This document shows, in pieces, positions 35,225 through 64,000 of a DNA stretch of 64,000 nucleotides. The translations under genes were made by a program, and so were the position numbers. The first letter of the stretch is position 1, and each line of letters opens with the position of its first letter. The notes beneath the pieces were generated by a model. That model did not search any database. It was not told the DNA's origin and worked only from the letters and a program-made list of their open reading frames with translations. This DNA is from Bacillota bacterium (GTDB lineage Bacteria; Bacillota; Clostridia; Lachnospirales; Bianqueaceae). Where the stretch lies: assembly GCA_017442735.1 (NCBI GenBank), contig JAFRZE010000003.1:1-64000 (forward strand). The letters run 5' to 3'.

Positions 35225-35478
35225 ATCTTGTTAACGTTATACTATCCGATAGCAAGAATGATTAAAAAAACATGAGAACCTTGCTACCACTATAGCAAGA
35301 TAGGCGATTTTTTCGAACTGACCTTGCTATTGCTGGGTCACTGAATAGCAAGGTGGAAAGCTAAATTGAGCAGACCTTGCTACGAAATTAGCAAGGTAAG
35401 TGGCTTTTTTTCTTGTATCTTGCTAAAGGTTAGCGGTTGTTTAGCAAGGAAGCCTGAAATAAACAAAGAATCTTGCTA
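35225..35478. repeat. 48-bp-phased palindromic array A (ACCTTGCTA/TAGCAAGGT)
   Basis: Eleven 9-bp half-sites at 35225, 35250, 35278, 35293, 35321, 35346, 35374, 35389, 35417, 35442 and 35470. The sequence alternates ACCTTGCTA-like and TAGCAAGGT-like, so each pair is a dyad. Loops within dyads are 16, 6, 16, 6 and 16 bases; every spacer between dyads is 19 bases. Dyad centres are therefore 48 bp apart and the pattern repeats every 96 bp. The end half-sites are degenerate. The array lies between the convergent PFOR and lipoprotein genes; the rest of the gap (35485-35573) holds nothing recognised. Confidence 0.9.
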
Positions 35479-60142: not shown

Positions 60143-62031
<1,889 letters not shown>

Positions 62032-62068
62032 AAAGGAGCCTGAAAGGCTCCGGTTCAGAAGAGATAGA

Positions 62069-62107
62069 AATGGCATGACTTATTGGGTCATGCCATTTTG
62101 TTTTTTG
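62069..62107 (+). terminator. Intrinsic terminator of the ATP synthase operon
   Basis: An 11-bp stem (AATGGCATGAC / GTCATGCCATT) followed by TTTTGTTTTTT. A shorter hairpin (GGAGCC / GGCTCC, about 62034-62052) lies just before it. Confidence 0.9.
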
Positions 62108-62136
62108 AGGAACTTTGCCATCACTTGATTGTCGAA

Positions 62137-62418
62137 TAGCAAGGTGAACTATTATTTTGAACTGACCTTGCTACCGTCGGGCTGTTGAATAGCAAGGTGA
62201 GCCGCCTATTTTGACAAACCTTGCTATTAGAATAGCAAGGTAGATTATTTTTATGAATCAACCTTGCTACCGCTAGAGTGCCAAATAGCAAGGTGAATTG
62301 CTTTTTTCTCCAAACCTTGCTACTGAAATAGCAAGGTGAACTATTATTTTGAACTGACCTTGCTACCGTCGGGCTGTTGAATAGCAAGGTGAGCCGCCTA
62401 TTTTGCCAAATCTTGCTA
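62137..62418. repeat. 48-bp-phased palindromic array B
   Basis: Twelve half-sites of the same 9-bp family as in the array at 35225: 62137, 62165, 62190, 62218, 62233, 62261, 62286, 62314, 62329, 62357, 62382 and 62410, with one more degenerate half before the first. Spacers between dyads are all 19 bases; loops alternate 16, 6, 16, 6, 16 from 62165. Segments of about 90 bp at 62137 and 62329 are nearly identical and lie exactly 192 bp apart, two super-periods. It again sits between convergent genes, so it fills the gap between atpC and the pseudouridine synthase. Confidence 0.92.
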
Positions 62419-62435: not shown

Positions 62436-63404
62436 TTATTGATCCAGGTCTACCTGGACATCCGAAGGCAGGAAAGCCATGAAGTCTTCCGGCGGTGGGG
62501 CGGTGATCTCCAGAGGCTCTTTCGTGAAGGGCTCCAGGCAGCGGATCTTCCAGGAATGAAGCATGGTGCGGGGAGCCGGCATGGAGGATATGGTGCCGGT
62601 ATATTCCTGATATAGCTGATCGCCCAGGAGGGGATGGCCGAGATGGGCGAAGTGCGTGCGGATCTGGTGGGTCCGGCCGGTGAGGAGATGGATCTTGACC
62701 AGGCTGATCTTTTCACCGGACACATCCAATACCTTGAGTACCTGGTATTCCGTACGTGCAGGTTTCCCGGACGGATCCGGTTTCATGAGGCGAAGAGGCC
62801 GACCGTTTTCTCCCAGCGGCGTATTCTCTCTGGTTTCGAGAAGGGGCTGGTCGATCAGGCCGGCTCCTTCCATTTCTCCGAGGACTAACGCGAGATAGAT
62901 TCGGGAAAGGGTGCCATCCGCGCGCTGCTTTTCCAGGATCGTGGCGGCGGGTGTGTTTCGGGTGACAGCGATGAGCCCGGACGTTTCCTTATCCAGCCGC
63001 CCGATCAGACGGACCGGCTCGGGATATAACGCCGCCAGATAATTGACCAGCGTATCATCATAATGACCATGTGCGGGATGGACTGCCATGCCGGAGGGCT
63101 TGTTGACCATCAATAGGTCATTGGAATGATAGAGGATGGAAAGATCACCTTCCGCGGGGACGACCGAAGGCCCCGTATCCGGCAGGGTGATCGTGATCTC
63201 GTCACCGGACAGGACAGGCGTTTTCATGGTAAAAAGGGGCTCAGCAGTCTTTCTCGCGGGTGACGCTTGAAAGACGAGAGCCCCTTTCAGGTTCAGAACG
63301 TGCCGGATCTGCCCGGCGCTTAAGAAACAGCGGTCTTTCAGGATCTGTCTCAGGGTAAGGCCCTGATCAGCTTCCGTGACGGTGTAGCGAATGATTTTTT
63401 CCAT
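62436..63404 (-). CDS. RluA-family 23S rRNA pseudouridine synthase
   Basis: 322 residues from ATG 63404. An S4-like start (TLRQILKDRCFLSAGQIRHVL) is followed by the catalytic core GRLDKETSGLIAVTRN (Asp as nucleophile) and the closing GRTHQIRTHFAHLGHPLLGD. It converts a uridine in rRNA to pseudouridine. The best guess is an RluD-type enzyme, but the site cannot be told from sequence. The start codon is one base after the stop of the upstream phosphatidyltransferase gene, so they are co-transcribed. Confidence 0.88.
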   Translation of the reverse strand: MEKIIRYTVTEADQGLTLRQILKDRCFLSAGQIRHVLNLKGALVFQASPARKTAEPLFTMKTPVLSGDEITITLPDTGPSVVPAEGDLSILYHSNDLLMVNKPSGMAVHPAHGHYDDTLVNYLAALYPEPVRLIGRLDKETSGLIAVTRNTPAATILEKQRADGTLSRIYLALVLGEMEGAGLIDQPLLETRENTPLGENGRPLRLMKPDPSGKPARTEYQVLKVLDVSGEKISLVKIHLLTGRTHQIRTHFAHLGHPLLGDQLYQEYTGTISSMPAPRTMLHSWKIRCLEPFTKEPLEITAPPPEDFMAFLPSDVQVDLDQ

Positions 63405-63405
63405 G

Positions 63406-64000
63406 TTATTTATAGTCGTGGAGGGTCGGGTCTTCAGGGTCGGGGACGATCGGGTCCGGATCGATCTTCTTGCCTCTGTCATCGACAGTCAGCGTGCCTT
63501 CGGTCCTGCCGTGCCATATGCCCCAGTAATTGTGTGCGTAAAGCATCAGGGTGACGATCATCCAGGTCCCGCAGAAAACGACCAGCGAGAGACGGATGTT
63601 TTCGGGCATCTGAGGAAAGACCAAAAGGAGAAGCAGCGTACCGTCCGTAATACCGGTACCGACTTTACCATACCATTTCGCGCCGCCGAATTTGAGATGT
63701 TTCTTGCGGATCGTCACGGCGCCGGCAATGGCCATAAAAGCTTCTTTGATGAATTCGATGGCGAACAAATACCAGAGCATCGGGTACCGGATACCCAGAC
63801 AGATGACCGCCGCGCCTTGTGTAAACTTATCAGCGACGGGATCGAGCAGGATGCCCAGTTCGGATACCTGGTTGAAAGCTCTGGCTGCCTTGCCGTCCAG
63901 GAAATCGGAAACGATGGACAAAACGAGACATAAAACAGCCCCGCTGTGGTTACCGGTCAGGTACTGGTAAATGAAGATCGGTATCAGTACAAACCGGATA
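63406..64000 (-). CDS. pgsA: CDP-alcohol phosphatidyltransferase, PgsA-like (5' end outside window)
   Basis: The frame runs off the window edge, so the start lies beyond 64000; a TTG at 63921 is not needed. The CDP-alcohol transferase motif DGKAARAFNQVSELGILLDPVADK (D-G-x2-A-R-x8-G-x3-D-x3-D) is complete. About four further membrane helices follow, with a polar C-terminal tail (DPDPIVPDPEDPTLHDYK). It most likely makes phosphatidylglycerophosphate from CDP-diacylglycerol and glycerol-3-phosphate. Confidence 0.85.
   Translation of the reverse strand, partial: IRFVLIPIFIYQYLTGNHSGAVLCLVLSIVSDFLDGKAARAFNQVSELGILLDPVADKFTQGAAVICLGIRYPMLWYLFAIEFIKEAFMAIAGAVTIRKKHLKFGGAKWYGKVGTGITDGTLLLLLVFPQMPENIRLSLVVFCGTWMIVTLMLYAHNYWGIWHGRTEGTLTVDDRGKKIDPDPIVPDPEDPTLHDYK

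Follow-up and report, generated by a model that had tools for sequence, protein, structure and literature searches.

A run of short inverted repeats at positions 62137-62418 of a 64,000-nucleotide stretch from a rumen Bacillota bacterium (contig JAFRZE010000003.1; the whole stretch analysed is called the window hereafter) raises the question of what kind of element keeps so many half-sites in so exact an order. The array consists of six 37-bp units of the form TAGCAAGGT-N19-ACCTTGCTA (Table 1). Eleven of its 12 half-sites are exact copies of TAGCAAGGT or ACCTTGCTA, and the last, at 62410, is ATCTTGCTA, with one mismatch. Every within-unit spacer has 19 bases, and the linkers measure 16, 6, 16, 6 and 16 bp in order, with dyad centres 48 bp apart, unit offsets of 53, 43, 53, 43 and 53 bp and a period of 96 bp. 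The original prediction had described twelve 9-bp half-sites with alternating loops of 16 and 6 bases, 19-base spacers and this 48/96-bp phase, all of which holds, as does its claim of two nearly identical segments 192 bp apart (62124-62226 and 62316-62418; 93% identity). The unit of invariant length is the 37-bp TAGCAAG-N23-CTTGCTA, and the 6- and 16-bp stretches are the linkers, whose lengths are about one helical turn apart. Allowing one mismatch, the window has 27 matches where 7.7 would be expected, a count that none of 100 shuffles reached; origin of the array by chance is excluded. An 88-aa minus-strand frame that runs across the array was also considered as a sign of coding origin and was treated as fortuitous, because not all of the half-site spacings (28, 25, 28, 15) are multiples of three and the loops are unconstrained.

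Table 1. Features of the window array, its surroundings and a second array in the window
Feature	Position	Strand	Remark
Phased inverted half-site array, 6 units x 37 bp	62137..62418	.	
Unit 1, TAGCAAGGT-N19-ACCTTGCTA	62137..62173	.	central T-tract
16-bp linker	62174..62189	.	
Unit 2	62190..62226	.	
6-bp linker	62227..62232	.	
Unit 3	62233..62269	.	
16-bp linker	62270..62285	.	
Unit 4	62286..62322	.	
6-bp linker	62323..62328	.	
Unit 5	62329..62365	.	loop same as unit 1 loop
16-bp linker	62366..62381	.	
Unit 6	62382..62418	.	final half-site with 1 mismatch
atpC-like gene, last of ATP synthase gene run, upstream flank	61621..62031	+	named by reading
Terminator-like hairpin and T-run after atpC-like gene	62067..62105	+	outside array
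RluD-type pseudouridine synthase-like gene, downstream, convergent	62436..63482	-	named by reading
Second window array, 5 units, offsets 43, 53, 43, 53	35250..35478	.	array also at orthologous sister site (L074)

The window array is one member of a dispersed family. A search of the whole genome for half-site pairs with a free gap (N4-30) returned 38 exact pairs, all of them N19, and the reversed-pattern control of this search returned 0 pairs; allowing up to three mismatches, the genome has matches at 119 places. The excess of dyads is therefore real, and since every copy has the same spacing, random spacing elsewhere or a lack of excess, named beforehand as grounds for refutation, does not apply; the claim of an order stricter than that of ordinary REP/BIME elements also stands. 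The window genome (G000; 2.82 Mb, about 89% complete) carries approximately 21 dispersed arrays with 118 detected units, and its sister species G006 (public MAG RGIG8018 from water-buffalo rumen) carries at least 18, often at orthologous positions, fully degraded arrays being missed because detection relied on half-sites. Each array has 3-7 detected units with offsets of 43 and 53 bp in near-perfect alternation, apart from rare 1-bp departures. Among 392 genomes of the order, the TAGCAAG unit was found in the G000 and G006 species only. An exact-unit search matched 17 stretches, of which all but four come from the sister MAG and the remaining four are single units. A phage or viral origin was rejected: the matches on viral contigs are single units of chance-like quality, and two-unit patterns gave none. 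Arrays of this kind were not found described in the open-access literature searched.

The TAGCAAG arrays are intergenic. The genes that flank the window array converge, the atpC-like gene ending at 62031 and the RluD-type gene at 62436. The proposed excess at convergent sites was confirmed: 10 of the 20 classifiable G000 arrays sit in convergent gaps, a class that makes up 9 of the 49 comparable gaps (p = 0.0013), with mechanical ORF calls and the left neighbour of the 35250 array corrected by reading. Arrays occur in tandem and divergent gaps too. The window also has an 18-bp tandem repeat, AGAGCCTGCTGAAGAGGA, at positions 1-199, with 11 copies and 96% matches.

A profile of 206 units revealed which parts of the unit are kept. 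The TAGCAAG core is conserved at 94-100% per position, a figure somewhat overstated in that the arrays were located via half-sites; the two bases after the core are R and then mostly T. A central AAAA tract is present at 85-96%, to which the orientation of the units by A/T balance contributes. The linkers and the remaining loop positions are variable. The A-tract lies on either strand, sometimes in alternate units within one array. Covariation between half-sites was sought in three pairings, including the halves of a unit and neighbours across linkers, and none was detected. Because the half-sites lack covariation and the A-tracts face either strand, selection acts on DNA and not on RNA hairpins. 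Rfam, at gathering and relaxed thresholds, gave no credible match, in agreement with the earlier statement that no known repeat family fits.

Comparison of orthologous sites in the two sister species leads to a similar division of the unit. Flanks are mostly 83-96% identical between G000 and G006. In pairs with aligned array content, the cores are 97-100% identical and the loops 29-94%, and the well-aligned pairs have 0-1 gap openings per array versus 2-7 in the flanks. The pair L050/L070 is an extreme case, in which the flanks are 90% identical and the loops are at chance level, while core and geometry are preserved; the array content of L070 is unrelated to that of its orthologue. Two pairs, L046/L075 and L049/L071, align less well (core identity 84% and 76%). 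At the site of the G000 array L044, the G006 array L066 combines the edges of L044 with the middle of another G000 array, L047; arrays at different loci therefore appear to swap contents, and loops and linkers are apparently replaced freely. At the orthologous site of the window array, G006 has no TAGCAAG array and a different repeat family instead. This second dispersed symmetric family (ACGCG...TTTTGAAAAAC, GGAGCA, steps of about 39 bp; L079 1270-1500, L063 450-625, L067 2870-3160) has 35 matches in G006 and 15 in G000, is absent from five congeners and fills the G006 intergenic site equivalent to that of the window array.

Relatives that lack the TAGCAAG sequence possess similar arrays built from other half-sites. 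They were located with a sequence-blind detector (at least six copies of one 7-mer, in both orientations, within 400 bp), which returned no arrays from shuffled DNA. G003 has 96 exact TCGAGGA units, consistent with about 16 arrays or loci, those past the sampled loci being known from matches alone; the listed arrays have offsets of 50, 50/51, 63, 72 and 62 bp within a base. A second G003 half-site, GTAGGAA, accounts for 39 exact units, spread over about 9 loci, and its fullest arrays have offsets of 42, 53, 42, 64, 42, 53 and 42 bp, symmetric about the centre, often with a central A/T tract like that of the window species. Further G003 half-sites are AGCACCA (30/12), TGTGACA (30/13/23) and GTAATGA. 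G005 has TACATCC (30/23, one locus) and GCGGATA (30/35), together with two loci that bear a TAACAAGAT/TGACAAGAT-like half-site; a search for this TKACAAGAT half-site in G005 at N19 found no array, so the two loci are of looser geometry. G015, which belongs to another genus of the same family, has GAAAGTA (29/23) and ACCTGAT (28/22). In all of these arrays 28-31 bp separate the inverted half-sites. A sample of 285 kb from the order's other families contained no arrays of similar geometry. Two side observations were made. In G005, the GCGGATA units at L111 120-404 are hairpin-like, and the two arms of one unit or more carry matching changes, which makes a role as RNA or terminator-like element more plausible for these units. 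In another genus of the family, L155 800-1170 holds a 64-bp unit repeated in tandem that contains a palindrome (AATGAGA, 44/20 spacing), outside the 28-31-bp class.

Between two adjacent G003 arrays (L105 16661-17040 and 17121-17500) the alignment is nearly gapless and 217 of 377 positions are identical (shuffled maximum, 161), yet every half-site is different: one array has the TCATTAC/TCATGA type and its neighbour has TCGAGGA. The alignment indicates that homologous arrays came to differ at all half-sites together, because their spacers are homologous yet all of their half-sites differ.

The offset from one unit to the next is close to a multiple of about 10.4-10.5 bp (R = 0.77 at 10.5 bp, phase -0.2 bp). 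Compared with random offsets, the p value is about 1e-5 on the assumption of independent families, which is optimistic because related families may have inherited their linker classes from a common ancestor. Two marks of a sequence-specific nucleoprotein array were found, namely helical phasing and half-sites conserved independently of the flanking sequence. Protein binding on double-stranded DNA is predicted because the spacing follows helical turns, the A-tract is indifferent to strand and independent half-sites are conserved amid free loops; the original suggestion that the arrays might bind protein is judged a better reading than termination. The array is best described as a dispersed non-coding double-stranded DNA element of 36-37-bp units, each with two inverted 7-9-bp half-sites 29-30 bp apart around a central A-tract, in which linker lengths that step by roughly one helical turn keep every unit on the same face of the helix. 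According to the proposed mechanism, a putative sequence-specific DNA-binding protein would occupy the half-sites cooperatively, yielding a regular nucleoprotein structure. At the roughly 20 intergenic sites per genome, which are in excess between convergent genes, such structures would probably serve as BIME-like anchors or buffers for DNA topology or transcription, a cellular role assigned by analogy with BIMEs. We consider it probable, with some reserve, that the helically phased arrays mark the nucleoprotein structure of a putative cooperative binding protein with a BIME-like role.

The usual explanations of dispersed palindromic repeats are transposition relics and RNA hairpins. In the present arrays the conserved quantity is geometry and not sequence, and the half-sites switch between species, which suggests that the arrays are landing strips for one or more putative DNA-binding proteins of fast-changing specificity. 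It is possible, though we put it forward tentatively, that they represent an undescribed class of chromosomal nucleoprotein rulers, in which arrays of 4-8 units change their half-sites coherently between species and between adjacent homologous arrays while near-helical-turn geometry is held. If this were true, several DNA-binding proteins and their dispersed sites would have co-evolved in the manner of an arms race. The arrays also offer a clear example, in bacteria, of many dispersed sites that change in concert, a phenomenon studied so far mainly via RAYT/REP pairs and satellite DNA. The conservation of geometry makes protein binding directly testable, and the differing half-sites provide a natural specificity series for finding the binder.

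REP/BIME elements are the nearest known kind. The BIME-2 elements and REPINs of enterobacteria and pseudomonads, with their RAYT transposases, share with the present arrays dispersed intergenic positions, inverted units in alternating orientation, regular spacing and species-specific sequences. BIMEs are binding sites for gyrase and IHF (PMC2817692). The present arrays are REP/BIME-like in behaviour and may work in a BIME-like manner by analogy; they fall outside REP membership and are not classed as BIMEs. A REP is a palindrome of 20-40 bp conserved along its length (in the E. coli control, genomes carry a median of 40 copies of a 36-bp REP, conserved over 36 bp), whereas only the 7-9-bp ends and the A-tract are conserved here. 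REPs have a constant GTAG/CGTC tag, whereas here about 41% of the 6-bp linkers have G immediately before TAG, a position that is not constant. Complementary changes that preserve the palindrome and a cognate RAYT gene flanked by repeats, both characteristic of REPs, are not seen in the TAGCAAG arrays or, for the gene, in G000 and G006. The spacing is also much stricter here. The main text of a survey of tagged REPs makes no mention of Firmicutes or Clostridia (PMC3733652).

The original prediction had suggested looking for a RAYT-like transposase, and a gene exists: a RAYT-like gene adjoins ftsY in G000, G006, G005 and G001. Its product (L094 1093-1947, L095 1093-1947) has a Y1_Tnp domain and a C-terminal HTH, the HTH match being in G000 and G006. 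No array lies within about 1 kb of the gene in these two species, whose draft assemblies could lack other RAYT copies, and the protein scores 20 bits against a family cut-off of 80 bits; for these two reasons the HUH/HTH protein is only a candidate for the array binder. Sequence identity of this protein is 92% for the pair of TAGCAAG species and 24-26% for the remaining two species, in which FtsY keeps 74-77%; this divergence is a lead and not evidence, because any fast-evolving gene shows such a pattern.

The arrays could be REP/BIME- or MITE-like selfish elements spread by a transposase such as a RAYT-type HUH enzyme, with half-sites as recognition ends and a geometry due to recent or continuing copying. 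Such a reading would account for discrete dispersed arrays that start and stop at half-sites amid unrelated flanks, for their gain, loss or replacement between sister species, as at the G006 site without the window array, for half-sites that are species-specific as REPs are (PMC2817692), and for a fast-evolving RAYT-like gene by ftsY in four congeners. Copying alone leaves unexplained why loops are near random yet half-sites intact; moreover, conservation of whole units and a constant GTAG tag are both absent, and the low-scoring RAYT-like gene has no flanking arrays and, in the window species, a degenerate HUH motif (NTAH). We regard the selfish reading as unlikely.

Without any host function, slippage, templated repair or gene conversion among inverted copies might create and homogenise the half-sites, and the apparent exchange between arrays (the chimera-like L066 and the unrelated content of L070) fits such a process. 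It seems very improbable, since homogenisation would be expected to act on whole units without sparing loops and linkers, and it predicts neither the exact 28-31-bp spacing, the helical-turn steps and the 42-53-42-64-42-53-42 symmetry nor the conservation of half-sites against point mutations at orthologous sites. Also very improbable is the remaining proposal, that the inverted half-sites pair as hairpins of a structured RNA or transcription terminator: nine-base stems, the convergent-gap excess and one terminator-like hairpin scan match inside the array (62218-62241) speak for it, but tandem and divergent gaps contain arrays as well, the atpC-like gene has its own terminator, separate terminator-like hairpins adjoin arrays, identical half-sites make pairing ambiguous, and covariation, tract orientation and Rfam all count against it, so termination, raised originally, is not supported as the main role.

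Apart from these readings, the predicted nucleoprotein arrays can be compared with two other systems. Neisserial dRS3/RS mosaic arrays (NIME) contain short intergenic inverted repeats interleaved with other repeats and are associated with recombination; dRS3 is a 20-bp palindrome with RS repeats of 50-150 bp between copies, and it is not known to show helical phasing or half-site switching. NIMEs share the intergenic inverted-repeat arrangement with the present arrays. CRISPR arrays have constant short repeats and regular spacers in common with them, whereas here the repeats alternate in orientation, the loops are common to arrays and species, the loci are dispersed (about 20) and unit spacing is exact to the base. 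Membership of CRISPR, defined by direct repeats, foreign spacers and cas genes, was rejected on the inverted repeats and shared loops. Repeats with 54-57-bp steps that the sequence-blind detector picked up at L151 9963-10767, beside a cas1-like gene (named by reading), look unlike the TAGCAAG arrays and are probably an ordinary CRISPR array.
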